Shown here: positions 1,089-39,348 of the stretch, one piece after another | Layout: each line of letters begins with the position of its first letter | How positions within the stretch are numbered: position 1 is the first letter of the stretch | From: Bacteroidetes bacterium 4572_128 | GTDB taxonomy: Bacteria > Bacteroidota > Bacteroidia > Bacteroidales > 4572-128 | Assembly (NCBI GenBank): GCA_002084355.1 | Contig: NBLL01000003.1 | Location: 1-40,782 of the forward strand | Reading direction: 5' to 3' | DNA: 40,782 nt | Made by a program: the position numbers and the translations under genes | The notes under the pieces: generated by a model | Databases searched by the model: none | What the model was told of the DNA's origin: nothing | Seen by the model: only the letters and a program-made list of their open reading frames with translations

Positions 1089-4000
1089 ATGCGAAAAAAA
1101 ATTTATTTATTTTTTTTATTGTTGAATTTCTTTTTTCTGTTCTCTTTAGCATCTATTGGGCAGAATTGTCAACATACAGTTATACTTTATGATGCTTACA
1201 GCGATGGATGGGACGGCAATTTATTGACTATTAATGTTGATGGGATACCAGTATTGGAAAACATTACTTTTGATAATTCTATTAATGATGGAGACAGTGC
1301 CATATTTACTTTTCCTGCTACTACTGGAAGTATAATCACAACTACATTTACTGCAGTTTCATATTCTTATGAAGCAGATTATACCATATTTGATAATGAA
1401 AATAACATTATAGCAACTGATGGTGATGGTGGTACAAGTAGTTCAAGTGGTACTGCCCCTGTTGGTTTAACAGAAGAAGATAACATTTTTGGTTTTTGTC
1501 CGGAAGGTGATATGGAATATCTTTCAGGAACAACTTTTTCGGCTGACACTTTAATTGTAAATCCAGGTTCTTTGAATAAAACAATTATTGGTTTAGAGAT
1601 TATAAGTGGAGTTGGTATTGATAACCCATTTAATTTAACAAGTTTAAATTTCAATACTAATGGTTCAAGTGATGCAATAACAGATATTACAAATGCAAGA
1701 GTTTATTGTACATTATCTGACAGTACTTTTTCTACTGATTCTCTTTATGGTAATTTTGAAAACCCAAATGGAGATTTTACTGTAAATGGTGAAATTTTAT
1801 TGAATTATGGGAAAAATTATTTTTGGTTAACTTATGATATTTCACAAGATGCTACATTAAATAATTTTGTAGATGCTGAATGTACTTCTTTTGTAATTTC
1901 TGGAAATACAGAAACACCAGAAGTTACTGCTCCTGCAGGAAATAGAGAAATATCTTCAGATGTTTATTTAGTCGCAGGAATAAATGAATTAACCACTTGT
2001 GATGTAATGGTTTATGATGAAGGTGGTCCAAATGGAGATTATGAAAATAATTTTGATGGTACAATTACTTTTTATCCAAATGAAGAATTGTCTTATATTC
2101 AGGTTGAAGTTCTTTCTCTTGTCATCGGTAATAATGAAGATTATTTGAAAATATATGATGGTAATTCTACAGATGCTCCCTTAGTTGCAAATCTTACCGG
2201 AACTTTAAATGATACAACTTTCATTGCTTCTAATGATGGTTCTATGACGATTGAATTTACAACAAATATAGCTGGAACTTTTGATGGTTTTGTTTTAAAT
2301 GTTAGTTGTTATGAACCGATAGAAGCTCCATCTATTGCTGTAAATCCTTTGCCTTTTGATGGTATTGAAGTAGGAGTTCTTGATGTTTCTGGTACTTTAA
2401 TGTCTTGGGATAATGTTCCTTATTCATTAGGTTATTATATTAATTTTGGTACAGATAATCCACCAACTAATATTTTAAATAATGAAGATCTTGGTTTTAC
2501 TAATTCTTACACTCCAGAATTAGATTATTTACAAACTTACTACTGGCAAATAATTCCTTATAATAATATAGGAAGTACAGCAGATTGTCCAGTATGGTCA
2601 TTTTCAACTTCGAGTGATGTTCCTGTTGCAAATATTAATTTAAATTTTGCTGACTTTGGTACATCAACTATTTATCCTCCCGCTGTTTCTGACACAATTT
2701 TTAATTTTACATTAACAAATCTTGGTGTTGGAGAATTAAGCATTGAAAGTTTTACTGACCTTGAAGGAACACCATTTTCAACTAATTTAGGACTTGGCGC
2801 TGATACTATATCTCTTGCTTCTAATGAAACTTCTGAACCTTTTATTTTTGCATTCCAACCTACAGAAGAAGGTTATTTTGAGACTGAATTTACAATTGTT
2901 ACTTCAGGTGGTGAAATTACTGTTACTTTATCTGGAGAAGGTTATCTTCTGCCAAGTGGAATGGTTGAAGTGGGAACTGGTGATTTAATAAACCAAAGTT
3001 TACCTATGGAACCTTTTTATGGTTATAGTTATTCGCAATCAATTTATTTACAACATGAAATAAAAGAAGACGGCAGAATAGAAAGAATTTATTATCATTA
3101 TAATGGATACCAAGAATGGGGTCCTGATGCAATTAAAATTTACATGGGACACACAACTTTAACAGGATTAGACAATTGGGTTTCTATCGATGATTTAGTA
3201 GAAGTTCACGAAGGTGAATTAAGTGTGGAAGCTGTAGACGGCTGGGTTGAAATAGTTTTAACTACTCCTTTTGAATATAATAATACTGACAATCTTGTGG
3301 TAGCTTTTGAAGAAAATACAACAGGATACCACAGTAGTAGTTCTGAATTCTTCTGTACAGAATCTGATACAACTATGAGTATTTGTTATTATAATGATAA
3401 TAATAATCCAGACCCAAATGACCCTCCAGATGGAAACCTAATGGAATCTCGTCCAAATATCCGCTTTTTATTTGCACCTATTCCAACAGGTCCAGCTATT
3501 ACTTTTTCTCCTATGGAATTAGATTTTAATGAAATAATTGCAGCGAATGATTCTATAACAACAACTTTCACTGTCATTAATAACGGTGTAGAAAACTTAG
3601 ATATTTCTGGTATTGATGTTGAAGGACCTTTTGTAATTAATTTTGACGGCGAAATAACTATAGAAGCCGGAGAAAGTTACGATTTTGAAATAGAGTTTTT
3701 CCCAACAAGTTCTGGTGTTTTTACAGGAACAGTTACATTTACAACTAATGCAACAACTGGCGATGGAGTAATTACTTTGATGGGAACTGCCTATCCTTCT
3801 ACTTATCTTGGCGAAAGTTTTGAGGAAGGATTTCCACCACTTGGATGGACAATAGAAAATCTTTCAGAAGGAAATGATTGGACACAGTATAATTTAGGTG
3901 CTTTAGAAGGAAATTATAATGCACAATTATATTACAATGGTACTAATTTTTCTGATGGACGTTTAATAACTCCTTTGCTTGAATTAAACACCGTAGATGA

Positions 4001-7000
4001 AATTGACGATTTTGTTAGCTTTTATGCAAAAAGTAACAGTACAGATGCAATTCTAAAAGTAGAATATTCTTATGATGGAGTTAATTTTATTGAAATAGAT
4101 GAAATAGATTTAGAACCAAATTACAGTCAATATGTAATTGATTTAAATACTATTACAGTAATAGAAGATCAAGGTATTTTTATTGCATTTCACGGAATAA
4201 CAACAACAAATTATTACACTTCTATTTATATGGATGTTGTTTTATATCCTCCAACTTTCTTAGATCCAATCTCTCCGGTTGCAAGTTCTAATCCAATTCC
4301 AGAAGATGAAACATCTGAATTAAATATTCTTTCTTTAGATTTAGGATGGGATGAAATTTTCGAAGCTACTGGATATTATGTAAATATTGGAACAGATAAT
4401 CCTCCAACTAATATGATTCAAAATGAAAGTGTTGAAGAAAATTCTTTTAATTTGAATGATTTAGAATATAGCACGACATATTATTGGCAAGTTGTACCAT
4501 ATAATACTTTTGGTTCTGCAGAAGAATGTCCAATATGGTCTTTTACAACTATGGATCCTTTACCTCCAGGTGTTGTACAATACAAGTGAAGAACTTGTAA
4601 ATGATGTAGAAGGTACTGCAAGAATAGAAAAAATTAGTTATTATTATAATGGAAATTCTGCATTTGGTCCAGATGAAATTCAAATTTATATGGGACATAC
4701 TAATTTATCTAATTTTGAAAATGACTCTTGGGTAACTACTGATAACTTAGCTTTGGTTTATGACGGAGAAATAAGTGTTACGAATGAAGAAGGATGGATT
4801 GATATTGTATTATCTATTCCTTTTACATATAACGGTACTGATAATTTAGTTGTTGGTTTTGATGAAAACACAGATGGTTTTCACGGTAGTTCAGATGATT
4901 TTTATTCTTCGGCAACAGATTCTATAATGAGTTTAAATTATTATTCTGACGGAACAAATCCTAACCCAACAGATTTAACATCTATTCCATCTGCAACAAC
5001 TATAGCTGCTCGACCAAATACACAATTTTATTTTGGAGCTTTACCAACTGGTCCTGTTGTTATGTTTAGTTCTTCCGATTTGTCTTTTTCAACTATACCT
5101 GCTGAAACAGAGGATAGCATTCAAATAAATATATTTAATACAGGTATTTCAACCGACAGAAGCTGGTATATTTACAGATACTTTGTGGTCTAATTCTAAC
5201 ACTTCAACTATAGAAGTATTTGCAGTTTTAAGTGGAGCATCTTATCCGTCAAATTATATAGGTGAAAGTTTTGAAAATGAATTTCATCCGGAAGGTTGGA
5301 ATATTCAAAACAATGGTGTAAACCAATGGGTACAATATTCTTATGGATCTTATGAAGGTGAGAAATGTGCACGTTTAAGTAATTCTAGTCTTGGAAATTC
5401 CATTTCTAATTTAATAACTCCTCAGTTAGTAATAACTAATAATGATTTTATTACTTTCTATGCGAAAAAAAATTCTACTAGTTATGGTTCATTAATTATA
5501 ACTTATTCTGAAGATAGTATTAATTTTATTAATTTAGATACTATAAATTTAAGTACTTCTTATGAAAGTTTTACTGTTTCTTTTGAAAATATTCCAGAAG
5601 GAAATTATTATATAGGTTTTCTTGGAGACTTATCTACAGTTTATAATTATTTATCATTAGACGCTGTTATTTATCCACCTATTTATATTCCTCCTTATCC
5701 ACCTGCGGCTTCTACAGAACCTGTACCTGCTGATTTGACAGAAGATTTATCTATTTTTACTGTTGATATGAGTTGGAATAATAACTTTTTTGCAAATGCT
5801 TGTAAAATAAATTTTGGTACAGACCAATCAACTTTTACTGAAGATAGTGCAGAAGATTTAGGAAATCTTGAAAATTATCAAAAAACAAGTTTAGAATATG
5901 GCACAATTTATTACTGGCAAATTTTACCTTATAATGATTACGGTACTGCAGAAAATTGTCCTATATGGTCATTTACAACTATGGCAGACCCAACAATTAC
6001 AAGCTTGCCTTGGTTCGAAGATTTTGAAGAACCAGAAGGATGGTTAACGCAAGGTACATTTAATTGGACATTATATGTTCCTGCCGGAGGAGATGATAAT
6101 GTACAAGGAATAAGAGCATTATATCCAGCTTACTCTGGTGGAAATGCTGAAGCTATTAGTCCACCTGTAGTTCTTGATGTTGATGCTGAATTAGTTTTTA
6201 AATGGTCTCACGGATATACCACTAATAATCCAACAGCACAAATGCAAGTTTCTACTTCTACAAACGGTTTAGATTGGGAAGTAATTTGGGATAAAGAAGG
6301 AGAAGATTTTGATTCTGATGATGGAGCAAATTCTTTCGCTCCCGGAGATTATGTGAATGCTGTTGTTTCGCTTGCAAATTACAACGGACAAACAGTTTAT
6401 GTGAAATTTGATGCGATTAGTGAATATGGTGGTTATCCAGTTTTTGTTGACTCTATAGAAATTAAAGAATCTGTTGATATGGAATTTATCTCTACTACAA
6501 CAACACAAACAAATACTTCTTCAGATAACGATTTCGAAGAAATTAATGAGTTTGGTTCTGTAAATAATCCTAACGGTGATTTTACAATTACAGGAACACA
6601 AAATATTCTAGGAGGAACAAATTATTTCTGGTTGGTTTATGGGATTTCTGAAAATGCAACCTTAGAAAATATTGTGGATGCACAATGTAATTCTGTGAAA
6701 ATAGACGGTATCATTCAAAATACTGAAATTAGTATTCCTGACGGAGATAGAGAGATACACATTGCTCCGGATACAATAATTATGGGAACAACAACAGAAA
6801 TTAATACTTGTTTTGCTTATTTCTATGATAATGGTGGAGTAAACGCTAATTATATTTCGGCTTCTAATGAAACTCTTGTTATTTATCCAGATGGAGCAGA
6901 TGCAAAAGTTAAAATTAATTTTTCTGTTTTTAATACTTATTTTTCTGACGATTTAGTTATTTATGATGGAAATAGTAATTCAGCTCCTTTAATTGGAGAA

Positions 7001-8400
7001 TATTCTGGCAGTACTATTCCAGAAGAAATTATTTCTTCTGCAAACGACGGAAGTTTAACTATTGAATTTTCACCATCTAGTAATGCAAATGCTGGTTGGG
7101 AAGCTGTTGTTAGTTGTCATTATATGATTCCTGATTTAGAGCTTAGCGTGAGTTCTATAACTTTCGAAAATACTTATGAAAATGTTGCCGCTCCATCTCA
7201 TGAAATTTTTATTAGAAATGATGGTGCTGCTAATTTAAATGTTGCAAGTCATCAAATTAACGGAGCAGATGCAAGTATGTTTAGTGTTTCCGCAACTTAT
7301 CCTATGGAAATTATTCCCGGAGATAGTGTTGCTGTTTATATTGGTTTTACACCAACTTCTTACGGTGATAAAATTGCGGGTGTTTTATTTACTGATGTAA
7401 CAGGTGAATATACTGACCTTGCTCTTTTATATGGACATTGTATAGATCCAACTTTAACACCTTCATTTACTGAAACATTTAATGAAAGTGTACCTGCTGC
7501 TGGATGGCAATCTTACGAAGGTCAATTAACAGAAAATTCTAATTTAACAATTGTTCCAGTTGGATGGTTTAGTGCTGATTTTGCAAATGACAATGAACAC
7601 GAAAACGGTGCTTCGGCAAAAAGAGAACCTTATTTCGAAGAAAATTATTGGCTAGTAACTCCTCCTATTAACTTAGGAACTCAAGGTTTTGATTTGCATT
7701 TTGATTTAGCTTTAACTACACATAATGAAAATGAAGAAAGTTCTATAGATCTAAACGGAAAATTTGCTGTTGTTATTTCTACAGATAATGGAGAAACTTG
7801 GTCTTCTAATAATATTCTACAAGAATGGAATAATTCTGATACAATTTCTAATGTTGGAGAATCTGTTTCTATTTCGCTTGATGATTATTCTGGAACTATT
7901 AGATTAGCTTTTTATAGTGAATTAACTCAGATAGCATCTGATGGCTACGATATATTTGTTGATAATGTTACTGTTGGAACACCTTGCGATTTAAATATTG
8001 ATTTAGGTGATGATATTAATACAAATGTAATTGATTTACCTTATACAGTTTCAATAGAAGATAATTATGCTAGTTATCAATGGTTTAACAACGGTGTTGC
8101 AATAGATGGTGAAACAAATAATAGTTATGAAATTACTGCATTGGGATTTTATCAACTTACTCTGGAAGTAACCGACGAAAACGGTTGTCAAGCATCTGAC
8201 GATATTAATGTTGAAATATTTATTGGAATGGAATTATTGAATAATACAAAGATTTCAATATATCCAAATCCAAATGCTGGAATATTTAATTTAGAAATTA
8301 ATTCTGAATAATAGATATTTCTCATTTAGAAAAAGGAATTTATTACATTAAAGTTATAAATGCTAATTCTGTGAAAACAGAAAAATTAATTATAAAATAA
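1089..8400 (+). pseudogene. giant T9SS-secreted adhesin-like protein, frame broken three times
   Basis: One gene by homology of its internal repeats. It has a signal peptide (MRKKIY plus a hydrophobic core to about residue 25), a CUB-like domain (CDVMVYDEGG, about residues 298-405), repeated FN3-like modules (TYYWQIIPYN, WSFTT), ASPM/Hydin-like Ig modules, cleaved-adhesin/MAM-like modules (GESFEEGFPPLGW; again in the second half) and a T9SS type A C-terminal sorting domain (ISIYPNPNAG then DISHLEKGIYYIKV). Expected product: a cell-surface or secreted adhesin exported by the Por/T9SS machinery. The frame breaks at about 4570-4585, 5140-5150 and 8309-8313. At each point residues present in the homologous repeat or family domain are missing, so these are deletions rather than single-base slips. 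The open segments are 1089-4589, about 4580-5193 and about 5150-8311, with the last 29 codons in a third frame up to 8400. Confidence 0.8.
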
Positions 8401-8572: not shown

Positions 8573-9223
8573 TTATTTATAAAATAAAAATTTCACTGCT
8601 TGCAAATTAATATAAATTTGCTTTAAATCAACAAATTTTAAACTATCTAATATGTTTGATACAAAATATTCATAATTATTATTTTTATCTTTTTCCAGAA
8701 TAATAAATTGCCATAACCTACCAATTACAAAACTCCCTATAATTTTATTAGAATTATTCAAATTTATTGCAGCAAGCATTGCCGCAAGAACTTGATTTTC
8801 TGGATTTCCTGTTGCATTAAGAGATCTCTTATATTCTTGTAAAAAGAAAAATGGATTTTTAGGTCTTTCTATTCCTTTTGCAATTATAAAATCTGGTTTT
8901 CCTTTTAATAAAAAACCATTAATTTCACAACTTATTTCCTCGCCATACCAATCAAAAATATCTTTAAAATGAAAATCTACTTTATTTAAAATAGGACCTA
9001 TAAATTTTATAGATAATTTTTGTTCATTATAATAGGATAAATACAATCTATTTTTTTTTATTAAATTTAAAAAAAAATTTTTTTCATTTTCAGAAATTTG
9101 ATAATTATAATTAAACCATTTTTCAAATTTTTCATCATTAATAACAGGACGAATATTAACAACTTCCATTAATTTGTCAATTGTTGCATCTCTAAATTTA
9201 ATTACTTTTTCCTTGTTATTCAT
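8573..9223 (-). CDS. PD-(D/E)XK nuclease-like protein
   Basis: A 216-residue cytoplasmic protein without signal peptide or membrane segment. The middle contains GKPDFIIAKG followed by PFFFLQEYKRS, i.e. PD, about 20 residues, then E-x-K. This is the catalytic arrangement of the PD-(D/E)XK nuclease fold, as in the N-terminal domains of type I restriction subunits and in many stand-alone Bacteroidota proteins. Then come NPENQVLAAMLAA and GSFVIGRLWQFIILE, typical of these families. No helicase or methylase partner is adjacent, so the substrate is unknown. The frame is intact. It is a single-gene unit with repeats on both sides. Nuclease activity is an inference from the motif. Confidence 0.65.
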   Translation of the reverse strand: MNNKEKVIKFRDATIDKLMEVVNIRPVINDEKFEKWFNYNYQISENEKNFFLNLIKKNRLYLSYYNEQKLSIKFIGPILNKVDFHFKDIFDWYGEEISCEINGFLLKGKPDFIIAKGIERPKNPFFFLQEYKRSLNATGNPENQVLAAMLAAINLNNSNKIIGSFVIGRLWQFIILEKDKNNNYEYFVSNILDSLKFVDLKQIYINLQAVKFLFYK

Positions 9224-9240: not shown

Positions 9241-9800
9241 TTTTTATATAAAAAAAATATAATTAATTTTTTTAAAAAACATCCAATTATTTTTTATTTG
9301 AAATTAAAAAATTTTTTCAAAATTCGTCCAAAATTTTAATATTTTTTGTAACCGCTCATTATAGTATGGTAAAAAAAGTTTTTTCGCAAAAAATAAAAAC
9401 CATAAAGCTTTGATTTTAAGGTTGTTACGTTTTTTGTAAAATGCTGAGCGGATACCATTTTTTAATTTTTTAATTTCAATTAAAAAAAAAATTTTTTCAA
9501 AATTCGTCCAAAATTTTAACATTTTTTAATTTTTTAATTTCAATTAAAAAAAAAATTTTTTCAAAATTCGTCCAAAATTTTAACATTTTTAATTTTTTAA
9601 TTTCAATTAAAAAAAAAAATTTTTCAAAATTCGTCCAAAATTTTAATATTTTTTAATTTTTTAATTTCAATTAAAAAAATTTTTTCAAAATTCGTCCAAA
9701 ATTTTAACATTTTTTAATTTTTTAATTTCAATTAAAAAAAAAATTTTTTCAAAATTCGTCCAAAATTTTAACATTTAAAAAATTTTTTTCAAAAATCGTC
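9241..9800 (-). repeat. AT-rich repeat array, about 7 units of about 62 bp
   Basis: Units read AAATTCGTCCAAAATTTTAA followed by CATTTTTTAATTTTTTAATT and TCAATTAAAAAAAAAATT, in minus orientation. Unit positions are about 9317, 9498, 9560, 9622, 9681, 9747 and 9790. The 9317 unit is split by the insertion at 9348-9456. Its copies translate to runs such as KILKFWTNFEK, but no real gene is present. Confidence 0.85.
9341..9463. mobile_element. MITE-like insertion (109 bp) with 7-bp target duplication
   Basis: The element spans 9348-9456 and is flanked by ATTTTTT on both sides (9341-9347 and 9457-9463). Its ends are imperfect inverted repeats: GTAACCGCTCA (9348-9358) and TGAGCGGATAC (9445-9455), 10 of 11 matching. 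There is an inner inverted pair TATGGT / ACCATA. Removing the element and one ATTTTTT restores a repeat unit identical to the one near 9636-9680, which is direct evidence of insertion. It is too short to encode a transposase. Confidence 0.7.
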
Positions 9801-9839
9801 CAAAATTTTAATATTTTTTAATTTCAAAAAAAAAATTTT

Positions 9840-10190
9840 TATTTTTAAATCAAAATTTTACAAATTTTCATTAAAAAAATTTTTTCAAAAAAACGGCAAA
9901 ATTTTACGAATTTTCATTAAAAAAAATTTTTCAAAAAAACGGCAAAATTTTACGAATTTTCATTAAAAAAAATTTTCAAAAAAACGGCAAAATTTTACGA
10001 ATTTTCATTAAAAAAATTTTTTCAAAAAAACGGCAAAATTTTACGAATTTTTCATTAAAAAAATTTTTTCAAAAAAACGCTCAAATTTTACGAATTTTTC
10101 ATTAAAAAAATTTTTTCAAAAAAACGGCAAAATTTTAACATTTTTAAATTAAAAATTTTTTTTCAAAAAAATGGCAAAATTTTAATGAAT
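9840..10190 (-). repeat. AT-rich repeat array, about 8 units of about 46 bp
   Basis: Units of the form TCAAAAAAACGGCAAAATTT followed by TACGAATTTTCATTAAAAAA, at roughly 45-46 bp spacing (about 9887, 9932, 9976, 10021, 10067, 10112, 10160). A different subfamily from the array just before it. No gene is visible in 9224-10329. Confidence 0.85.
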
Positions 10191-10329: not shown

Positions 10330-12156
10330 ATGGGCAAAATAATAGGAATAGATTTAGGAACAACAAATTCTTGTGTATCTGTAATGGAAGGAAACGAAGC
10401 GGTTGTAATTTCAAATAGCGAAGGTAAACGTACAACTCCATCAATAGTTGCATTTTTAGATAAAGATGAGAGAAAAGTTGGTGATCCAGCAAAAAGACAA
10501 GCAATAACAAATCCAAGAAAAACTATTTTTTCTATAAAACGTTTTATGGGAGAAAGTTATTTTAATGTCAGTAAAGAAGTAAATAGAGTTCCTTATGAAG
10601 TTGTAAAAACTGATAATAATGTTCTAAAGATAAAAATAGAAAATAGAAATTATTCGCCTCAGGAAATTTCTTCTATGGTTTTACAAAAGATGAAAAAAAC
10701 AGGAGAAATTGCTGGATTAGAAGTAAAAAGAGTTGTAAACGAACCAACAGCAGCGGCTCTTGCTTACGGATTAGATAGAAAAGCAAAAGATATAAATGTT
10801 GCAGTTTTTGATTTAGGAGGCGGAACTTTTGATATTTCTATTTTAGAACTTGGTGATTCTATAGTAGAAGTAAAATCAACAAATGGTGATACACATCTTG
10901 GAGGAGATGATTTTGACCAGGTAATTATTGATTGGATGGCAGAAGACTTTTTGAAAAATGAAGGTGTAGATTTACGCCACGATGCTATGTCTTTACAACG
11001 TTTGAAAGAAGCAGCAGAAAAAGCAAAAATAGAACTTTCAAGCTCAACGATGACAGAAATTAATTTGCCATATATTATGCCAGTAAACGGTATTCCTAAG
11101 CATTTTGTAAAATCTTTATCCAGAGCAAAATTCGAACAGCTTGCAGATACTTTAATACAAAATACTATGGAGCCTTGTAAAAAAGCTCTTGCTGATGCTG
11201 ACTTAAATGCAAATGAAATTGATGAGGTTATTTTAGTTGGCGGCTCAACTCGTATGCCGGCAATTCAAAATATTGTAGAAAAATTTTTTAAGAAAAAACC
11301 ATCAAAAGGGGTTAATCCAGACGAAGTTGTTGCAATAGGTGCAGCTATACAAGGAGGAATACTTGCCGGAGATGATTCATTAAAAGATATTTTATTATTA
11401 GATGTTACGCCTCTGTCTCTCGGAATAGAAACTATGGGAAGAGTAATGACAAAATTGATAGAATCAAACACAACTATACCGTCTAAAAAAACAGAAACTT
11501 TTACTACTGCTGTTGATAATCAGCCTTCTGTAGAAATACATGTTTTACAAGGTGAGCGTCCAATGGCTGCAAATAATAAAACTATAGGTCGTTTTCATTT
11601 GGATGGAATTCCACCAGCACAAAGAGGTACTCCGCAAATAGAAGTTACTTTTGACATTGACGCTAACGGAATTTTAAATGTTTCTGCGAAAGATAAATCT
11701 ACGAATAAAGAGCAAAGCATACGTATAGAAGCATCTTCTGGTTTAAGTGATACAGAAATAAATAAAATGAAAGAAGAAGCAAAAGCTAATGAGGAATCTG
11801 ATAAAAAAGAGAAAGAAAAAATAGATAAGTTAAATAGTGCTGACAGTACAATCTTTCAAATAGAAAAACAAATGAAAGAAATGGGTGATAAATTACCAGC
11901 AGAAAAGAAAGAACTAATAGAAAGTAGCATATCTAATTTAAAAGAAGCTCATAAAGCTCAGGATTTAGATGCCATAGATAAATATATGGACGAATTAAAT
12001 AAAGTATTTCAAGAAGCGGCTCAAGGAGCACAAGGACAAAATGGAAATCCAAATTTTCAAGATGCTAACTTCCAAAATCCAAATGAAAAACAAGAAAACA
12101 AAAAAGAAGACAAAAAAGGAAAAGACGAATACACTGATTTTGAAGAGGTAAAATAA
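10330..12156 (+). CDS. dnaK: DnaK (Hsp70) with an internal 31-residue gap
   Basis: ATP-dependent Hsp70 chaperone. The N-terminus [11 protein letters not shown], the [12 protein letters not shown] phosphate loop, [18 protein letters not shown], the [13 protein letters not shown] interdomain linker, the substrate-binding domain and a C-terminal EEVK-like tail are all present. It is 608 residues against about 635-640 in Bacteroidota. The shortfall is one in-frame gap between T124 and G125: the universally conserved block that links LQKMKKTAE to [11 protein letters not shown] and contains VITVPAYFND is absent. As written, the nucleotide-binding domain lacks a core strand and would not fold normally. 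Single-gene unit with its own terminator. Identity is certain; functionality of this version is doubtful. Confidence 0.95.
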
Positions 12157-12544: not shown

Positions 12545-13281
12545 ATGAAAAAAATATTTTTTATATTTTTTATATTTTTTAGTTTTATTTCTTTTTCACA
12601 AAATTCAGATTGGAAAAATGAAATTTCTAAAGCTAATAATTTTTATAAAGAAAAAAAATTTAAAAAAGCGGTAGAAATTTACGAAAATCTCATAAAACAA
12701 GATTTTGAATCTTCAGAATTATATTATAATCTGGGAAATTCGCATCTGCAATTTTAAATTTTGAACGAGCAAAATTATTAGCTCCAAATGATGACGATAT
12801 AAAAAATAATTTATTAATCTCTCAGAAAAGCACAAAAGATAAAAATGAAAAAGTACCTCAATTGTTAATTTTTGTATGGGCAAAAAATTTAATTAAAATA
12901 TTTCATTTTGAAACTTGGGCAACAATTAGTGTAATATTTTCATTTTTATTTCTATCGCTTTTTACTGCTTTTTTATTATCTAATAAAATTAAAATGAAAA
13001 AATTATTTTTCTTTATTAGTGTTTTATTTTTAATAATAAGTTTAAAATCTTTTATATTTGCTCATTATCAAAATGATATGCAAATTAATCACAAACAAGC
13101 AATTATATTTGCTCCCTCAGTTGAAATAAAAAGTGAACCGAGTGAAATGGGGACGATTTTATTTCCTCTTCACGAAGGAACGAAAGTTCTTGTTTTGGAT
13201 GAAGAAAATAATTGGTTAGAAATAAAAATAAGCGACGGAAGAATCGGATGGATACAAAAAAAAGATTTAGAAATAATATAA
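12545..13281 (+). pseudogene. batE: BatE-like TPR/SH3 membrane protein, frame broken
   Basis: N-terminal signal peptide (MKKIFFIFFIFFS), then a TPR (FKKAVEIYENL, SELYYNLGNS). A frame change at about 12740-12745 follows, and the next frame continues the same TPR fold (SAILNFERAKLLAPNDDD). Two membrane helices come next (about 12900-13070), then an SH3-like tail (APSVEIKSEPS, GTKVLVLDEENNWLEI, DGRIGWI) to 13281. This order is that of BatE in the Bacteroidota Bat (aerotolerance) operon, which also carries batA-D; those partners are not here. About 8 codons between GNS and SAIL (normally a YYKxG-type TPR turn) are missing, so the lesion is a small out-of-frame deletion, not a one-base slip. Confidence 0.75.
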
Positions 13282-19744: not shown

Positions 19745-20570
19745 TATAAAAAATTTTATTTCAAATAAAGCAATTTTTTTTGAAATAAAATTTTAATATT
19801 TTTATTTCAAATTTAAAAAAAATTTTTTTTTTAATTCGTGAAAATTTTAATGCTTTTTATTTCAAATAAAAAAATTTTTTTTTAATTATTAAAAAATCAT
19901 AAAAAAATGGCATATTTTTGAAAAAAATTTTTTTTAATTATTAAAAAATCATAAAAAAATGGCATATTTTTGAAAAAATTTTTTTTTAATTATTAAAAAA
20001 TCATAAAAAAATGGCATATTTTTGAAAAAATTTTTTTTAATTATTAAAAAATCATAAAAAAATGGCATATTTTTGAAAAAAAATTTTTTTTTTAATTATT
20101 AAAAAATCATAAAAAAAATGGCATTTTATTGAAAAAAATTTTTTTTTTAATTATTAAAAATCATAAAAAAAATGGCATTTTATTGAAAAAAATTTTTTTT
20201 TTAATAATTAAAAATCATAAAAAAATGGCATTTTATTGAAAAAATTTTTTTTTTAATTATTAAAAATCATAAAAAAATGGCATATTTTTGAAAATTTTTT
20301 TTTTTAATTATTAAAAAATCATAAAAAAATGGCATTTTATTGAAAAAATTTTTTTTTTAATTATTAAAAAATCATAAAAAAAATGGCATTTTATTGAAAA
20401 AATTTTTTTTTAATTATTAAAAAATCATAAAAAAAATGGCATTTTATTGAAAAATTTTTTTTTTAATTATTAAAAAATCATAAAAAAATGGCATTTTATT
20501 GAAAAAATTTTTTTTTAATTATTAAAAAATCATAAAAAAATGGCATTTTATTGAAAAAATTTTTTACCGT
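19745..20570 (+). repeat. AT-rich tandem repeat array, 13 units of about 52 bp
   Basis: Thirteen units of TTAATTATTAAAAAATCATA followed by AAAAAATGGCATTTTATTG or TGGCATATTTTTG and A/T runs (unit cores from about 19909 to 20539), preceded by one degenerate copy near 19825. The two core variants alternate in blocks, as expected of local duplication. No gene lies in 19741-20666. Confidence 0.9.
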
Positions 20571-24421: not shown

Positions 24422-24878
24422 TTAAAAATTTTTATAAATTAAAACATTTGCAAATGCTTCTATTCCTTCTTCTTTTCCAACAAAACCTAATTTTTCTGTT
24501 GTTGTAGCTTTTATAGAGATATCTTCTAAATCTATTTTCATAAATCCAGATAAAACTTTTTGCATAATTGGTATGAAAGGAGAAATTTTTGGCTTTTGTA
24601 AAACTATGGTTACATCTATATTTCCTATTTCAAAAGAATTTTTTCTTATTAAAACCATAGTTTCTTCTAAAAAAAATTTACTATCGAAATTCTTAAATTT
24701 TTTATCTGTGTCTGGAAAATGAAAACCTATATCTCTTAAATTCGCAGCACCTAAGATCGGCATCAGAATGTCCGACAGTTCCCTTATGGTAATTTATATT
24801 TACTCCACCAAGTATTAAACTTTCATTTTCTTTTAAACGATGAACGTCATAACCAAAACCAATACGTATTTTTTTCAT
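24422..24878 (-). pseudogene. ispF: IspF (MEcPP synthase), frame broken in the active site
   Basis: 2-C-methyl-D-erythritol 2,4-cyclodiphosphate synthase of the MEP isoprenoid pathway. The start at 24878 gives [20 protein letters not shown] then [18 protein letters not shown]. The frame then changes at about 24750-24758, and [29 protein letters not shown] and ATTTEKLGFVGKEEGIEA follow in the other frame. Between DAD and LGAA the family has about ten residues (VLLHAICDAL-type), including the metal-ligand His; these are missing. So the lesion is an out-of-frame deletion of roughly 30 bp. As written the enzyme could not work, although the pathway is normally essential. Confidence 0.85.
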
Positions 24879-25005: not shown

Positions 25006-25167
25006 TTAAATTAATGGGTCTTTACCACTTCCGCCCCAAGGATTACAAGATAAAATTCTTTTTAAAGCAAAAGTTGGTGTATATCTGCAAGTTGAAGGTA
25101 AAAATGGAGATAATGCAATTTGATAAAAACGAATAATTAATATAAAAGGTTTAGCGAGTAATCTCAT
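25006..25167 (-). CDS. yidD: YidD membrane-insertion factor with internal gap
   Basis: A 53-residue reading frame: [20 protein letters not shown], then STCRYTPT fused directly to [19 protein letters not shown]. YidD proteins (about 70-85 residues) assist YidC in membrane-protein insertion. The usual block between CRFTPT and the LKRILRCNPW motif (CSxYAxEAIxxHGxxxG, about 20 residues) is absent, in frame. Its start overlaps the end of rnpA by 17 bp, the conserved rnpA-yidD order. Identity is secure from both ends; function of this shortened form is doubtful. Confidence 0.8.
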
Positions 25168-25528
25168 TTTCAAATTTATTTAGAATTTCTATAATAGATT
25201 TTTCAATGGTGTGGTAATCTAAAATTTTATTACTTATATAAAATAAAACAAAAATAATTTTTTCTTAGATTTATTTAATCTATATGCTTCTCTTGTTCGT
25301 CTTTTTAATAAGTTTCTATCTAAAGCTTTTTTAAATTTCTTTTTCGGAACAGCAATTAGAATTTGAGAATTATAACTTGTTTTCAAATCTGTTTTTTTCC
25401 ATAAAATTTTAAATGGAAATGAAAAAAAATTTTTATTCTTACTAAATAATTCTTTTATTAAAACTTTATTACAAAGTCGTTCTTGTTTTTTTATTACAAA
25501 GTCGTTCTTGTTTTTTAAATTTAAACAT
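25151..25528 (-). pseudogene. rnpA: RnpA (RNase P protein), broken by a 25-bp duplication and a second indel
   Basis: Protein subunit of RNase P (5' processing of tRNA). The start at 25528 gives MFKFKKQERLCNK, then hits a stop because a 25-bp segment is repeated in tandem (25466-25515). Past the duplication the frame reads QERLCNKVLIKELFSKNKNF, FPFKILWKKT, AVPKKKFKKALDRNLLKRR and REAYRLNKSK. A second break at about 25255-25262 in an A-run leads to FVLFYISNKILDYHTIEK and a stop at 25151. The RNR-type motif (here DRNLLKRR) is intact. Removing one repeat copy and restoring the A-run gives a near-complete protein. Confidence 0.8.
25466..25515. repeat. 25-bp tandem duplication inside rnpA
   Basis: TTATTACAAAGTCGTTCTTG plus TTTTT occurs at 25466 and again at 25491, a head-to-tail duplication (offset 25) that is not a multiple of three. 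It shifts the rnpA frame after about 12 codons. Confidence 0.9.
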
Positions 25529-25638: not shown

Positions 25639-26032
25639 TTATATATTTTTTATTAAAAGCCATTTTAATGCTTTTTCTTCATTGTCAAATTTTTTTAAAT
25701 TCATCAAATAATTGCTCTACTGATGCTTCAGAAAAAATCTCTTCTGGAACTAGATAAGCATATTTTTTCAAACCCAATTTTATTAATTCTGGATTTAATA
25801 AATGAGCCATCCAAATTTGTTCTTCTGGATTAATTAAATAATTAAAATCCATACACCTATCGTATAAATATTTTGGTTTACATTCTTTAAAAGCATCTAA
25901 CCATTTTCTCATTTCTGATTTAAAATCATCTGCATCCATATTTTCTGTTTCTGGAAACCAATCAGAAAACATTATAGATCTACTATCGTCATAAATATGT
26001 TCTGAATATTTTGACTTATAAATTTCTTTCAT
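25639..26032 (-). pseudogene. small conserved Bacteroidota protein (STAS-like?), 3' frame break
   Basis: The main frame (from 26032) encodes 115 residues: SRSIMFSDWFPETENMDADD, FKSEMRKWLDAFKE, LYDRCMDFNYLINPEEQIWM and KYAYLVPEEIFSEASVEQLF. The pattern (alternating strands and helices, a DCxDFxxxIxPExQxW-type core) resembles the short STAS/SpoIIAA-like hypothetical proteins common in Bacteroidota. At about 25690 the frame ends, but KFDNEEKALKWLLIKNI, the usual C-terminal FDxxxEALKWL helix, continues in another frame to a stop at 25639. A short block is therefore missing here too. Function unknown. Confidence 0.55.
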
Positions 26033-26092: not shown

Positions 26093-28560
26093 TTAATGTG
26101 CTTCCATCCAGTTTCTACCTGTTCCCATTTCAACTATTAATTGAACTTTTAATTTGCAAGCTTCTTGCATTTCTTTTTTTACAATTTTTTTAACTTCATT
26201 TAATTCAGACATTTTAACATTAAAATTTAATTCATCGTGAACCTGTAAAATCATACGAGATTTTATATTTTTTTCTTTGAATTTATTCGAAATATTTATC
26301 ATCGCAATTTTTATAATATCTGCCGATGCTCCTTGTATCGGTGTATTAATTGAATTTCTTTCCGCTGTTCCCTTTAATAAACTATTGCGAGAATTAATAT
26401 CTTTTAAAAATCTTTTCCTTCCAAAAATAGTTTTTACACTTGAAATTTTTAAATTTCTCGAAAGTCCAGAAGCTGATATTCCGTAAATAATTCCAAAGTT
26501 TCCACTTTTTGCTTTATTTCTTTCTTCTTTTGTAACGTTCTCTAAATCAACATTATAAATTTTCGATGCTGTTGCTGTATGTATATCTTCACCATTTTTA
26601 AATGTTTTTATCATATTTTCATCTTCGCTCAGATGTGCCATCAAACGTAATTCTATTTGCGAATAATCTGCCGATAAAAAAATATGTATTTTGTAAATTT
26701 GGATTACTTGAACTTAAACGTCCAGTTGTAACAATTGCTTGATTAAAAGAAGTATGAATTTTTTTCGTTTTCGGATTTACCAATTTCGGAAGTGCTTCAA
26801 CGTAAGTTGATAATAATTTTTTTAATGATCTGTAATCTAAAATTTGAGGAATTATTTTATGTTTATCTTTTAACTTCGATAATTCATTTTCATTTTCAAA
26901 TAAAATAATTCCCATTTGTTTCGTGGAATTAATATTAAATTTTTCTTTTGCTGATTCATAAATATTTTTTTCTATATCTAAAATTTCTTTTTTTAATTTT
27001 TTCTCATAAATTTTAATATTTTCAAGATCCAAACTGACACCATTAAATTCCATATCCGCAAGGATATTTATTAAAGGCATTTCAATATTTTCAAAAATCT
27101 CTTTTAAATTATAAGTTTCCAATTCTTTTTCTAAAATATTTTTTAATTGAAATGTTAAATCTGCATCTTCTCCCGCATATTCTTTCAATTTTTCTATATC
27201 AACAAATAATAAATTTTTTTGCTTTTTGCCTTTTTTTCCAATTAAATTTTCTATAGGAACTGGAGAATAATTCAAATATTTTTCTGATAAAAAATTCAAA
27301 TTATGACGGCTATCGCTATCTATTAAATAATGAGCAATCATTGTATCAAAAAATTTTCCTTTGACATTAATATTATGATTTTTCAAAATCAAAATGTCAA
27401 ATTTTAAATTCTGACCAATTTTTAAAATATTTTCTGTTTCAAAAAGCTCTTTAAATTCATTTAAAATTTTTGTATATTCTTGACGATCTTTTGGTAATTC
27501 TACATAAAAAGCTTTATGTTTTTCAAAAGAAAAAGCCATACCAAGTAAATTAGAATTATAAACATCTAAACCAGTAGTTTCGGTATCAAAACAAAATTCT
27601 TTCTTTTCTTTTAATAAAGAAATTAAATTTTTCCTATCTTCAAAAGTTTTTACAAAAACGTAATTATGTTTAACATCTTTTATGCTTTTGAAATTTTTTT
27701 TATTTGAATTTTGCAATGCAGAAAAAAACAAATTCCCCTTTTCTATTGGTTTATCTAAAATTCTTCTTTCTAACTCTTTAAATTCCAACTCATTAAAAAT
27801 CTCTCTTAATTTTTCAACATTATATTTTTTTAATCGAAATTTTTCCTCATCGAAATTTACATCAATTTCTGTAATTATCGTAACGAGTTTTTTTGCAAGA
27901 AAAACATCTTTTTTTCCAATTAATAAACTTTCTTTTTGTTTTCCTTTTAATAGATGAATTTTTTTATAAATTTCTTCTAAGCTTCCAAATTTTTGAATTA
28001 ATTTTTGTGCTGTTTTTTCACCTATTCCTTTTGCTCCTTTTATATTATCCGCGGCATCTCCGCTGAGAGCAAGTATATCAATTACTTGTTCTTTTTTCTT
28101 AATTTTAAACTTTTTTAAAACTTCTGGAACACCCATAATTTCAGGGTTTTCATTATTTCTTCTCGGTTTATAAATAAAAATATTTTCACTAACAAGTTGT
28201 GAATAATCTTTATCTGGTGTCATCATAAAAACTTTATAGCCTTTTTTTTCCGCTTTTTTGGAAATTGCACCTATTAAATCATCTGCTTCAAAACCCTCTT
28301 TTGCTATTATTGGAATGTTAAAATATTCAATAATTTTTTTTATATAAGGAATTGCAAATATAATATCTTCAGGCATTTTCGGTCTTTGTGGCCGCTATAT
28401 GAGTTGGTTTTTCATTAATTATAATCTCGTTCAAAGTATTTACAAAACCTAAAATCGCAGACGTATTTTGATACTTAGAATTTATTCGTGGATTTCTTAT
28501 GAAACCATAATAAGAACGATAAATTAAAGCATAAGAATCAAGTAAAAATAATTTCTTCAT
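26093..28560 (-). pseudogene. polA: DNA polymerase I, three internal gaps (two out of frame)
   Basis: 5'-3' exonuclease (LLDSYALIYRSYYGF, AKEGFEADDLIG, TPDKDYSQLV, GDAADNIKGAKGIGEKTA), 3'-5' exonuclease (FCFDTETTGLDVYNSN) and Pol A palm/fingers (GRLSSSNPNLQN, LSADYSQIELRLMAHLSEDE, RNKAKSGNFGIIYGIS, VHDELNF). Gap 1 (about 28388-28394): after PTHIA the VVFD...TFRHE...YKA stretch (about 20 residues) is lost, resuming QRPKMPEDI in another frame. Gap 2 (about 26684-26690): after NLQN the IPIRTxxGREIRKAF block is lost, resuming in another frame. Gap 3 (about 26440): in-frame loss of about 36 residues between NLKIS and VKTIFGRKRF. The total is about 820 codons against about 930 for the family, consistent with these losses. 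Replication and repair function cannot be retained as written. Confidence 0.88.
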
Positions 28561-28599: not shown

Positions 28600-29170
28600 A
28601 AATTAAAAAAAATTTTTTTTATAAATGCCATTTTTTTATATTTTTTAAAAAAAAATTTTTTCAATAAAATGCTGTTTTTTTTATGATTTTTTATAATTTA
28701 AAAAAAATTTTTTTCAATAAAATGCCATTTTTTTACGGTTTTTTAATAATTAAAAAAAAAATTTTTCAAAAATATACCATTTTTTTACGGTTTTTTATAA
28801 TTAAAAAAAAATTTTTTCAAAAATATACCATTTTTTTACGTTTTTTTTATAATTAAAAAAATTTTTTTTCAAAATATGCCATTTTTTTATGATTTTTTGT
28901 AATTTAAAAAAAATTTTTTTTCAAAATATGCCATTTTTTTATGATTTTTTATAATTAAAATTTTTTTTTCAATAAAATGCCATTTTTTTACGGTTTTTTA
29001 TAATTTAAAAAAAAATTTTTTTCAAAATATACCATTTTTTTACATTTTTTTTATAATTAAAAAAATTTTTTTTCAAAATATGCCATTTTTTTATGATTTT
29101 TTGTAATTTAAAAAAATTTTTTTTTAAAAATATGCCATTTTTTTATGATTTTTTGTAATTTAAAAAAAAA
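28600..29170 (-). repeat. AT-rich tandem repeat array, about 11 units of about 52 bp
   Basis: Units read TTTTTTTCAAAATATGCCAT followed by TTTTTTATGATTTTTTATAA. This is the reverse complement of the 19.7-20.6 kb array. Core variants include ATGCC, ATACC and ATGCTG. The array occupies the gap between the divergently transcribed polA and PpiD-like genes; no gene is visible in 28561-29288. Confidence 0.88.
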
Positions 29171-32198: not shown

Positions 32199-32766
32199 AT
32201 GGGATTTTTTTTAAAAAAGCAAATATCAAAAACTTGTCAAATTGGAATTTGGCAAATAAAAGAGGATTATAAAACACTTTTTTCTTCTTTAAATTTAAAT
32301 GAAGAAGATAAAAGTACCTTAGAAAATTTCAAAAATGAAAAAAGAAAAATAGAATGGTTATCTGTTCGTTTTCTTTTGAAGAAATTAATTGGAAAAGAAA
32401 TGCAAATTCTTTACAAAAAAAGCGGACAACCATTTATCAAAAATTCATCTATTTCAATTAGTATTACGCATAGAAAAAATCGGAAGAATTGCTTTACGTT
32501 TTCTAAGTCAAAAAGAATTAAAAGATATAGATTTTAATCAAAGAATTAAACATTTATATTTGCATTGGTGTGCAAAAGAAACTTTATTTAAAGTTTATGA
32601 AGATAGAGCTTTAGAATTTAAAGAAAATTTAAAAATTCTTAATTTTAAAGTCAATGAAGAAGGAACTTTCGAAGGAATTATTGATAAGAATAATATCAAA
32701 GAAAAATATATCTTAAATTATTTTGTAAAGAACAACTTTGTTGTTGTTTGGACTTTTGTTGATTAA
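32199..32766 (+). pseudogene. 4'-phosphopantetheinyl transferase, frame broken
   Basis: Transfers phosphopantetheine from CoA to carrier proteins (acyl carrier or secondary metabolism). The first frame has RKIEWLSVRFLLKKLIGKEM, YKKSGQPFIKN and SISITH. From about 32470 the second frame has KIGRIALRFLSQKELKDI, HLYLHWCAKETLFKVY and a C-terminal domain to 32766. The residues that should link SITH to the ALRFL helix (about 20, including the Mg-binding GIDIE motif) are missing. The WCAKE motif is intact. The lesion is an out-of-frame deletion; the product could not bind Mg-CoA as written. Confidence 0.82.
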
Positions 32767-32814: not shown

Positions 32815-33937
32815 ATGGCAAAAAAGAAAAAAAAAAAATTTACTATTCTTTATGTTGATGATGAGAAACAAAATTTGATTTCTTTTAAAGCTGCTTTTAG
32901 ACGTGATTATTCTGTAAAAACAGCTTTGAGTGGTAAGGAAGGAATGGCGATTCTAAAAAAGAAAAATATTCATCTTATTATCAGCGACCAACGTATGCCA
33001 GAAATGACTGGCGTACAATTTTTAGAAAAAACTTTACCTGAAAATCCAGATTCAATACGTATGATTTTAACTGGTTTTAGTGATATTAGTGCAATAATAA
33101 ATGCTATTAATCACGGAAAAGTTTTTCGTTATGTTACTAAACCTTGGGACGAGAGAGAGTTAAAAATGACAATAGAAAATGCACGTCAATTATATTCTCT
33201 AAATGAAAAAAACAAAATTTTATTTAAATTTTTACAACAGAAAGTAAAAGAACAAGAAAAAACTTTAAAATTATTTGAAAAATATGTGCCTGCACCTGTT
33301 GTGGAAAAAGTTCTTAGCGAATCAGAAGATTCTATTTTTGAAGGAGAATTAAGAAAAGTTGCTGTTTTATTTTGTGATATAAGAGGTTTCACTCCAATTT
33401 GTGAAAAAGTCGCTCCTAAGGAAATTGTTTCATTATTAAATGATTATTATTCTTTGATGACAAAAAGTGTAAAACGTTATAACGGTTATGTAAATCAATT
33501 TGTCGGAGACGAAGTTTTTGCTGTTTTTGGTGCTCCAATAAATTATAATAATAATGAAGAAAATGCTGTTTTTTGTGCGGTAGAAATGTTAGAGCTATTA
33601 AAAATTTTAAATAAAAAATACGTAAAAATTTTAGGCGAAGAAATAAAAATTGGAATAGGAATTAATTATGGAGAAGTCATTGCAGGAAATCTTGGTTCAG
33701 AAGATAGAATAGAAAAGAATCGAAAGTCTGACAAAAAAATCTCCAAATTCAATTTTAATAAGTGAAAATGTTTATGAAAAAACTAAGCATTTAATAGAAG
33801 TAAAACCTTGGGAAGCAATTTTTGTAAAAGGAACTAAGCATTTAATAGAAGTAAAACCTTGGGAAGCAATTTTTGTAAAAGGAAAAAAAGAAAAAATTTA
33901 TGTTTATGAAATTTTAAAAAAAATTGATGATTTTTAG
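32815..33937 (+). pseudogene. response regulator - adenylate/guanylate cyclase, frame broken plus duplication
   Basis: An N-terminal receiver domain (ILYVDDEKQN, ISDQRMPEMTG with phospho-acceptor Asp, MILTGFSD, YVTKPWDE), a coiled linker, then a class III nucleotide cyclase domain (VAVLFCDIRGFTPI, NGYVNQFVGDEVFAVFGAP, GIGINYGEVIAGNLGSED). At about 33712-33716 the frame changes: the YTVIGDTVNTAA-type block, which carries catalytic Asn/Arg positions, is missing, and RIESLTKKSPNSILISENVYEK continues in another frame to 33937. The C-terminal tail contains an exact 51-bp in-frame tandem duplication (TKHLIEVKPWEAIFVKG twice). It would make cAMP or cGMP under phosphorelay control if intact. Confidence 0.85.
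33781..33882 (+). repeat. 51-bp exact tandem duplication
   Basis: AACTAAGCATTTAATAGAAG... is repeated head to tail (33781-33831 and 33832-33882) with no difference, adding 17 codons in frame to the cyclase tail. The identity of the copies implies a very recent event or an artefact. Confidence 0.95.
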
Positions 33938-33961
33938 AAAAATTTTTTTTAATAATTATAA

Positions 33962-33969: not shown

Positions 33970-33981
33970 CAAAAAAAAATT

Positions 33982-34499
33982 ATGAAAGAAAAATTAGTAA
34001 TTCTAACGGGTGCTGGAATGAGCAAAGAAAGTGGAATAGCAACATTTAGAGATATGGGTGGTATGTGGGAAGAATATGATGTTGCTGAAGTTGCTACACC
34101 AGAAGCTTGGGAAAAAAATCAAGAATTAGTTAATAGATTTTACAATGAAAGAAGAAAACAGCTTTTCGAAATTAAGGAAAATGAAGCTATAAATGCGAAA
34201 AAGGTTCACAACTTAGACCGCATATTGTTTGGTTTGGAGAAGCAGTTCCAGAGATTATGAATGCCGCTGAAATTGTAAAAAAAGCTGATATTTTTATTGT
34301 TATTGGAACTTCTTTAAATGTTTATCCAGCTGCTGGACTTTTAGATTATGTAAAAAAAAGCACAGAAATATATTTAATTGACCCAAATGAAGTTGCAGTA
34401 AACATAAAAAATCACATTAAAAAAGGAGCAATAGAAGGTGTTAAAATTTTAAAAAAAATACTTTTAGAAAGTATTTTAAAAAAGATAAAAAAAAGTTGA
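33982..34499 (+). pseudogene. cobB: Sir2-family (CobB-like) NAD-dependent deacylase, large internal gap
   Basis: Sirtuin that removes acyl groups from lysine using NAD. Frame 1: [51 protein letters not shown] and NEAINA. At about 34196 the frame changes and [40 protein letters not shown] and the C-terminus follow to 34499. Between NEAINA and CEKG the family has about 70 residues including the catalytic TQNVDxLHERAG and HLHG motifs and the first Zn cysteines; all are absent. The missing stretch of roughly 215 bp is the largest gap I infer in the window. Confidence 0.85.
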
Positions 34500-34658: not shown

Positions 34659-34662
34659 CTAA

Positions 34663-34693: not shown

Positions 34694-34744
34694 TTATGCA
34701 AAATTTTAAATAAAAAAAAATCACACTTATATATTTTTTAATAA

Positions 34745-34875: not shown

Positions 34876-34879
34876 TTTT

Positions 34880-35665
34880 TTAAAATTTTTCTTCTTTTTT
34901 TTCTTTTTTACTAAGTTTTGCCACCCATGCGGAATGTTCTAAAGATAAAATATCTTCATTTTTTTCAACAAATGCACTATCACTTGCATCGTTTATTTTA
35001 TTATTTCTTTCCCATTTAGCAATATTTAATTTTAAACGGTCTGCTGTTGCTTGATAACTAATAACTAAAGATTGATATTTATGTGATGCAAAATAGCCAG
35101 ACATAGAAGCAGTTACGGAAGTTATCATAGCATTATTTAAATACCATTTCACCTGTCCTTCCACACGTTTTTTTATATAATCTTTTATTTTGAAAGTTGA
35201 TTCATCTGGAAAAATTTCTCTCCATTCATTTTCATTTAATTTTTCTTCAGAAGTTACTTCATATTCTATTTCTGACATTTTTTTATTCATATTACTGATA
35301 AATATAGTAAGTTCTAAATCTCTATTTTCATTATAAGGTGGAGAGGAAAAAATATAACGATATGCTTCAGATTTAAAAGTTTCTGCTGCTGCTCTTGTGT
35401 TTAATTTTAAATTTTCTTCTTCCTGAGTTAGAATTCTTCCGCCAGCAAAAGATGCAAAACCTATGAAAAAAGTACTTCCAAGTACTGCTCCGAGAATAAT
35501 AAACCAAAGAACTCTTTTTTCCCATTTACTAATTTTTTCTTTCAATTCGTTTGCTGTTGCGTCCCAAAGTTCATATTGATCCCATACATATTTTAATAAA
35601 TAATTTTTTTGTTTTTCTGTTTGAACAACAGGAGTATTTACTTTTCCTTTATTTTTTTTTGACAT
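34880..35665 (-). CDS. DUF4231/SLATT-like membrane protein
   Basis: 261 residues. WDQYELWDATANELKEKISK, one hydrophobic segment (about 53-77), RAAAETFKSEAYRYIFSSPP, then a second half with KRVEGQVKWYLNNA and HKYQSLVISYQATADRLKLN, ending near FVEKNEDILSLEHSAWVAKL. The AExLKSEAYRY and SYQATAxRLxxL motifs identify DUF4231, a member of the SLATT superfamily of two-helix membrane proteins often linked to nucleotide-signalling conflict systems. Only one clear membrane helix is seen per place where I would expect a hairpin, and the segment between WYLNNA and the second hydrophobic stretch is short. In-frame losses are possible but less certain than in neighbouring genes. Molecular role unknown. Confidence 0.6.
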   Translation of the reverse strand: MSKKNKGKVNTPVVQTEKQKNYLLKYVWDQYELWDATANELKEKISKWEKRVLWFIILGAVLGSTFFIGFASFAGGRILTQEEENLKLNTRAAAETFKSEAYRYIFSSPPYNENRDLELTIFISNMNKKMSEIEYEVTSEEKLNENEWREIFPDESTFKIKDYIKKRVEGQVKWYLNNAMITSVTASMSGYFASHKYQSLVISYQATADRLKLNIAKWERNNKINDASDSAFVEKNEDILSLEHSAWVAKLSKKEKKEEKF

Positions 35666-35679
35666 TTTTTTAATTTTTT

Positions 35680-35687
35680 CAAAATTA
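35680..35687 (-). promoter_or_regulatory. -7 element TAATTTTG
   Basis: Minus-strand match to TAnnTTTG, 14 nt before the ATG of the 35665 gene, in the 57-bp divergent gap with the epimerase gene. Confidence 0.45.
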
Positions 35688-35722
35688 AAATTTTTTTATT
35701 AATTTGTAAAAAAAAATATTTT

Positions 35723-36727: not shown

Positions 36728-36734
36728 TTTTTTT

Positions 36735-36790
36735 TTATTAAAATTTTATCGTTTTTTTGAAAAAAAATTTTTTTAATGAAAATTTAAAAA
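36735..36790 (+). repeat. single AT-rich repeat unit
   Basis: One unit with core TTTATCGTTTTTTTGAAAAA between the epimerase stop and the methyltransferase promoter. Confidence 0.6.
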
Positions 36791-36798
36791 TGTTTTAA

Positions 36799-36806
36799 TA
36801 TTTTTG
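36799..36806 (+). promoter_or_regulatory. -7 element TATTTTTG of the R-M operon
   Basis: Match to TAnnTTTG, 17 nt before the methyltransferase ATG. No separate promoter is seen before the endonuclease gene. Confidence 0.5.
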
Positions 36807-36823
36807 TATAAATAAAAAATATT

Positions 36824-37606: not shown

Positions 37607-37612
37607 GAAATA

Positions 37613-38359: not shown

Positions 38360-38369
38360 ATTTATATTT

Positions 38370-38589
38370 TTGAAAAAAAATTATTTTTAATAATTTGAAA
38401 TTAAAAATCCTAAAAATTTTGGCATTTTTTGGAAAAAAATTTTTTTTAATAAAATCTTAAAATTTTGGTGGTTTTTAGAAAAAAAATTTTTTTTAATAAA
38501 ATATTAAAATTTTAGCATTTTTTTGGAGAAAAATTTTTTTTAATAAAATATTAAAATTTTGGCGGTTTTTGGAAAAAAATTTTTTTTTG
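38370..38589 (+). repeat. AT-rich tandem repeat, 4 units of about 46-48 bp
   Basis: Units read AAAATTTTGGCGGTTTTTGG followed by AAAAAAATTTTTTTTAATAA and AATATT. The unit is the same, and in the same orientation, as in the array at 39349-39700. It ends abruptly at the GC-rich hairpin. Confidence 0.85.
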
Positions 38590-38665
38590 CGCCTGTGCGG
38601 TGTTTTCACCGCACAATTATACATCATAAATTTATGATGTATGAAAACAAGCCCATCGCAAGATT
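38589..38665. other. GC-rich hairpin followed by a 24-bp palindrome
   Basis: TGTGCGGTG - TTTT - CACCGCACA (38594-38615) is a perfect 9-bp stem. At once follows a perfect 24-bp palindrome centred on AAATTT (38619-38642: ATACATCATAA and its complement). It then reads ACAAGCCCATCGCAAGATTT. These are among the few GC-rich bases in this AT-rich region. No T-tract follows the first stem. The rest of 38666-38794 is AT-rich and shows no gene. Confidence 0.75.
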
Positions 38666-38794
38666 TTCCAAAATTTAAAATTATATATTTTTCAAATAAA
38701 ATTAATAAATTTCAAATTCATAAAATTTTATTTTTTTTCAAAAAAAAAAATTTAATTTCGAATTTTCATAAATATTTATTTTTAATTAAAAAAT

Positions 38795-39069
38795 ATGTTA
38801 AGTATTAAAGCAATATATGATGGTAATAATATCCATTTTTTAGAAAAAATTAAATTAAAAAATAGCCAAGAGAAATAATTATAACATTTCTCAAAAAAAC
38901 AAATATTGATTTTGAAAAGTTAAAAACTTATCAAAAACTTGATAATATAGAATATGATATTTCATCAAATGAAATTCAATCTTTATTAGAAAAAGGAAAA
39001 TCTTTTGATTTTCTTGATAATGAAGAAGAAGATATCTATACAGATAGCGATTTAAAAATCAAATACTGA
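38795..39069 (+). pseudogene. antitoxin of a type II TA module, frame broken
   Basis: Starts MLSIKAIYDGNNIHFLEKIK, a DUF104-like antitoxin opening (family pattern xIxAIYDGxxIxLLEPIxL). After LKNS the frame is lost near 38867-38872, but PREIIITFLKKTNIDFEKLK, LDNIEYDISSNEIQSLLEKG and an acidic C-terminus continue in another frame to the stop at 39069, which overlaps the toxin ATG (TGATG). A net change of one base suffices to explain it. Role: would bind and neutralise the downstream toxin. Confidence 0.65.
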
Positions 39070-39348
39070 TGAAAAGAGGAACAATAGTATTAACAAAATT
39101 TCCATTTACAGATTTATCTTCAAGTAAACGACGTCCCGCTGTAATAATATCTATCTTTATAAAAATAAAAATATCTTATTGTCGCTTTTATTTCATCGGT
39201 CATTCCAAAAAAATTATCAAAAACAGATATTGTTATAGATATTTTTGATAAAGAATTAGGATCTATTTCGAATGAAATACAAAAATTAATTGATGCGAAA
39301 TTATTAATTGCATTGGATATAAAAAATCTCAATTTTTTAAAATCTTAA
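39069..39348 (+). pseudogene. MazF/PemK-like toxin, frame broken
   Basis: Starts MKRGTIVLTKFPFTDLSSSK then RRPAVIIS, the opening of MazF/PemK-type endoribonuclease toxins (family pattern GDIVLVPFPFTDLSxxKxRPxLV). After IIS the frame changes near 39150-39170; LIVAFISSVIPKKLSKTDIV and the C-terminal part follow in another frame. The last residues (NFLKS) and the stop codon lie in sequence matching the adjacent repeat unit, so the repeat array supplies the 3' end of the gene. RNA-cutting function is inferred from the family. Confidence 0.65.

Follow-up and report, generated by a model that had tools for sequence, protein, structure and literature searches.

Does a bacterium whose dnaK, ispF and polA are each interrupted by short missing blocks really carry such genes, or were the blocks lost when its genome was put together? 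This question is raised by a stretch of 40,782 nucleotides with a GC content of 24% (hereafter the window), which is contig C69 (NBLL01000003.1) of the draft genome of Bacteroidetes bacterium 4572_128 (GCA_002084355.1). A preliminary description of the window listed about twenty short deletions or exact tandem duplications in otherwise conserved genes, and offered three explanations: a systematic assembly or amplification error, a decaying relic or transferred copy, and real rearrangement mutagenesis.

The draft (G000; 2.61 Mb, 151 contigs, 73% complete) was compared with a congeneric reference genome (G001; 3.4 Mb, 330 contigs, 91% complete) and with further genomes of the same order. Pairwise DNA alignment gave about 94% identity between the reference and the window, most window genes being 93-99% identical, with matches dispersed across many small contigs of the reference; the DnaK protein of the reference is 95-97% identical to that of the window. 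The alignment spans about half of the window and the reference is about 5% diverged, so that some deletion ends are placed to within 1-2 bases. Judged by DnaK, the nearest relatives are Bacteroidota, mostly Bacteroidales. When named genome contigs were scanned with DnaK, all matches came from other Bacteroidota and shared about 65-75% identity; these were discarded as too distant for base-level comparison.

Relative to the reference, 14 blocks of 22-193 bp are missing from the window, and two units, of 25 and 51 bp, are exactly duplicated in tandem. The lesions affect dnaK, batE, ispF, yidD, rnpA, polA (four), sfp, a cyclase gene, a sirtuin gene and a SLATT-domain gene, and in the DNA alignment the sequence is conserved right up to both edges. 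They are listed below, together with two further differences in the dnaK tail and in a toxin gene; junctions are placed by the last window base preceding them, and the evidence is the alignment to the reference unless otherwise indicated.

10699..10700, plus strand: dnaK, 93 bp of the reference missing, blunt; removes ATPase-domain residues at about HSP70 profile positions 127-153
12021..12022, plus strand: dnaK Gln-rich tail, 18 bp shorter, in repetitive sequence
12741..12742, plus strand: batE-like gene, 22 bp missing, frameshift
24752..24753, minus strand: ispF, 29 bp missing, frameshift; profile match split into 1-39 and 48-154, intact over 1-154 in the reference
25070..25071, minus strand: yidD, 57 bp missing
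25264..25265, minus strand: rnpA, 28 bp missing
25465..25514, minus strand: rnpA, exact tandem duplication of a 25-bp unit, read as a doubled overlap
26438..26439, minus strand: polA, 99 bp missing
26686..26687, minus strand: polA, 56 bp missing, frameshift
26893..26894, minus strand: polA, 54 bp missing
28390..28391, minus strand: polA, 56 bp missing, frameshift
32472..32473, plus strand: phosphopantetheinyl transferase (sfp-type), 68 bp missing, frameshift
33712..33713, plus strand: response regulator/cyclase, 35 bp missing, frameshift
33781..33882, plus strand: response regulator/cyclase, exact tandem duplication of a 51-bp unit, read as a doubled overlap
34188..34189, plus strand: sirtuin, 193 bp missing, frameshift
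35132..35133, minus strand: SLATT-domain gene (34880-35665), 120 bp missing; apart from the deletions, the region is 99% identical to the reference
35475..35476, minus strand: the same SLATT-domain gene and region, 111 bp missing
39251..39252, plus strand: toxin of a toxin-antitoxin pair, about 83 bp missing

Natural variation may account for the 18 bp by which the dnaK tail differs. For the giant gene of the type IX secretion system (T9SS), which has no close DNA copy in the reference, we relied instead on internal paralogy among its repeated modules. These internal protein repeats support three or four further missing blocks, as follows.

4570..4600, plus strand: block missing between the reading frames 1089-4589 and 4492-5193 (near 4580), from internal paralogy
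5150..5190, plus strand: block missing between the reading frames 4492-5193 and 5183-8311 (near 5160), from internal paralogy
6490..6540, plus strand: in-frame block missing (near 6510), from internal paralogy
8300..8315, plus strand: block missing in the C-terminal domain (near 8308), the frame resuming to 8397, from three-frame translation

A second giant T9SS-like gene of the draft (contig C26) is likewise split across several frames, and its homologues in the reference are 1600-2116 residues long.

With the paralogy of the giant gene added to the DNA alignment, the observation of about twenty short lesions in conserved genes was confirmed, as was the presence of one deletion and one duplication in each of rnpA (28 and 25 bp) and the cyclase gene (35 and 51 bp). 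The original list needs some corrections: polA carries four lesions, not three, and the two deletions in the SLATT-domain gene had been overlooked. The gene at 25639 (25685-26032) is at most affected by a small change of frame at its 3' end, its family members matching over residues 1-114 of 115. This gene belongs to a multicopy family of proteins of about 130 residues without a Pfam match (10 matches in the draft, 14 in the reference), with copies also in three other families of the order. In the toxin gene, the missing block of about 83 bp was recovered, whereas the frame break early in the gene, at about 39150, falls in sequence largely common to the reference, whose copy also has small indels. 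We therefore rejected an assembly artefact as the cause of some of the toxin's frame breaks; the toxin-antitoxin pair (38800-39350), the toxin part of which is about 93% identical to the reference copy, looks truly decayed, and the 83-bp block is the only change in the toxin that resembles the other lesions.

The lesions are not confined to the window. We sampled 358 kb of other contigs of the draft, of which 65 kb of coding sequence could be aligned to the reference. This comparison added 18 clean deletions, 29-109 bp long and in every case on the draft side, in genes that include mfd, ddl, pdxJ, NAD(P)HX repair, DUF58, malate dehydrogenase (mdh) and an rnf subunit. Indeed, across the aligned genes every clean coding deletion of at least 20 bp falls on the draft side, the reference versions being intact; differences in the opposite direction comprise the two exact duplications and a small number of changes that keep the frame (+12 to +42), located where the sequence is of low complexity or varies locally. 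The density is about one lesion per 2-3 kb of coding sequence, and open reading frames are shorter in the draft than in the reference (mean of 308 versus 394 residues). The window's contig is denser in lesions than the other contigs sampled, for which our first guess is coverage. Exact tandem duplications were also considered as an artefact marker that needs no reference, and almost no case in complex sequence was found in the draft outside the window, so that only deletions are informative there.

As read from these comparisons, the lesions are highly likely to be artefacts of the draft assembly and not features of the organism. Contig ends would have been joined end to end, without Ns, over short stretches lacking reads, each join dropping 20-200 bp; where neighbouring ends overlapped by 25 or 51 bp and were left unmerged, the overlap would have been written twice, which predicts the exact 25- and 51-bp tandem copies. 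We infer that scaffolding or gap closing was the exact step responsible. Counting against this explanation, lesions are denser in the window's contig than in the others sampled, deletion sizes cluster instead of falling off smoothly, and some gaps kept their Ns, one sampled contig of the draft having N runs of 28 and 37 bp. The reference keeps fixed gaps of 100 Ns, and the two observations on Ns together indicate that the tools themselves do not remove them. Skipped gaps and doubled ends are an already-known kind of draft-assembly error: in draft metagenome assemblies, including those made with IDBA-UD and CLC, local assembly errors and scaffold joins that keep overlapping flanks duplicated have been described (Chen et al. 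2020, PMC7111523). The window resembles these cases in its incomplete or wrong genes at joins and in its duplicated flanks from unmerged ends, and differs in that most joins in the draft lack Ns and that the density is high.

The junctions bear on how the blocks were lost. At 33 junctions, microhomology averaged 0.76 bp, compared with 0.99 bp expected by chance in the same sequences, and direct repeats were looked for at the junctions and none was found. The absence of microhomology above chance argues against slippage, microhomology-mediated end joining, collapse of repeats in a de Bruijn graph, and PCR or amplification chimeras. Deletions by replication slippage or microhomology likewise produce short deletions and tandem duplications within genes, but need direct repeats or microhomology at their ends, which the window junctions do not have beyond chance. 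In GC content and folding energy (hairpins) the deleted blocks were like coding segments taken at random, and no motif was found at either breakpoint. Sizes cluster at 54-120 bp, with no smooth fall-off from zero, and only 6 of the 33 deletions are multiples of three, where chance gives one third, showing that selection did not favour in-frame loss.

These properties are relevant to a second technical origin, in which chimerism during amplification or library preparation (for example, whole-genome amplification of few cells) yielded real molecules with internal deletions that were then assembled. Such an origin equally predicts a genome-wide spread, confinement to one data set and invisibility to selection. 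However, template switching by a polymerase normally leaves short microhomology, often with inversions, and the junctions display neither microhomology above chance nor an association with hairpins; exact duplications of 25 and 51 bp are also not its usual product. Because the junctions lack microhomology, we regard amplification chimerism as unlikely, and less likely than a scaffolding error.

If the lesions were instead real, in an organism undergoing mutational meltdown or in a decaying relic or transferred segment, selection on the lesioned genes should be relaxed. Pooled dN/dS between the draft and the reference is 0.151 in 26 lesioned genes and 0.137 in 53 intact genes, and no internal stop was found in the lesioned genes, in agreement with the earlier report of no nonsense substitutions. 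The lesions thus left no trace of relaxed selection. Nor does their density follow divergence: genes with dS below 0.06 (0.41 lesions per kb) and above it (0.37) are hit alike. Accumulation in proportion to dS was rejected at this cut (p = 0.003), and less strongly at a cut of 0.08 (p = 0.02) or 0.10 (p = 0.10). The accumulation of pseudogenes in host-restricted or symbiotic bacteria offers a superficial parallel, as it also combines many frame-disrupted genes with an AT-rich genome, but relaxed selection, nonsense codons and the sparing of essential genes are expected there, and none of these was seen in the draft. Some true decay does seem to occur here, in the toxin-antitoxin pair with its indels in both genomes. 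By contrast, the other lesions are found all over the draft rather than in one segment, without in-frame enrichment, and hit essential genes: dnaK, polA and ispF have no further copy in the draft, within an assembly that is 73% complete. Real lesions of this kind, including the relic or transferred copy proposed at the outset, are therefore very unlikely. An active mutagenesis by rearrangement, or a programmed excision of short blocks with intact copies kept or restored elsewhere, has next to no chance of being right, since nothing favours it except the number of lesions, the joins are blunt and obey no repeat, motif or size rule, no intact copies of dnaK, polA or ispF lie elsewhere in the draft, and the sister genome has no such lesions. 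Rearrangement mutagenesis is also contradicted by the lack of in-frame enrichment and by a lesion density independent of divergence, and would moreover entail the simultaneous loss of dnaK, ispF, polA, rnpA, yidD and ddl.

Taken together, the lesions occur in one assembly only, are absent from its close relative, extend over the whole assembly, and are blunt and blind to frame, essentiality and divergence, a pattern that lends good support to the systematic assembly error first listed among the options.

Several other features of the window were recorded along the way. Intergenic, very AT-rich tandem arrays with units of about 45-64 bp, of the TTTTTTCAAAAAAACG..CAAAATTTTAA type, lie at the following positions.

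5-300, 9456-10184, 19869-20565, 28644-29170, 38413-38588 and 39338-39680: AT-rich intergenic arrays

Related arrays stand between genes on many contigs of the draft and the reference; as judged by sequence they are an unusual dispersed family of intergenic repeats, and they probably also break the assemblies. The gene at 8573-9223, whose protein has no Pfam match, has many relatives at 70-77% DNA identity on other contigs of both genomes and thus represents a multicopy gene family in the genus. The large sensor/phosphatase-like gene at 14815-17493 has at least two further copies in the draft (C119, C122) at 75-82% DNA identity and a 75% relative in the reference (C11). Finally, the segment 34842-38540 (SLATT-domain gene, NAD-dependent epimerase, N4/N6 methylase and R.HinP1I-type restriction enzyme) is about 99% identical to the reference, with flanks at 93-96%, and on other contigs the dS values separating the two genomes also appear to form two classes (about 0.01-0.05 and 0.15-0.25), which suggests that the two lineages recently exchanged DNA or that the bins contain mixed populations.

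A cell carrying solely the window versions would be without the DnaK ATPase core, IspF and DNA polymerase I. That the genome of the living cells has dozens to hundreds of recent, blunt deletions of 20-200 bp throughout, essential genes included, is scarcely credible; if true, it would imply some unknown recent mutagenic event or a way of living with broken genes. Gene loss, pseudogene counts, claims of missing enzymes and odd domain structures drawn from this 73% complete draft are consequently not trustworthy, and such assemblies can be recognised cheaply and without reads where junctions are blunt and show no frame bias while dN/dS is normal. We conclude that in the living bacterium these genes are very probably normal.
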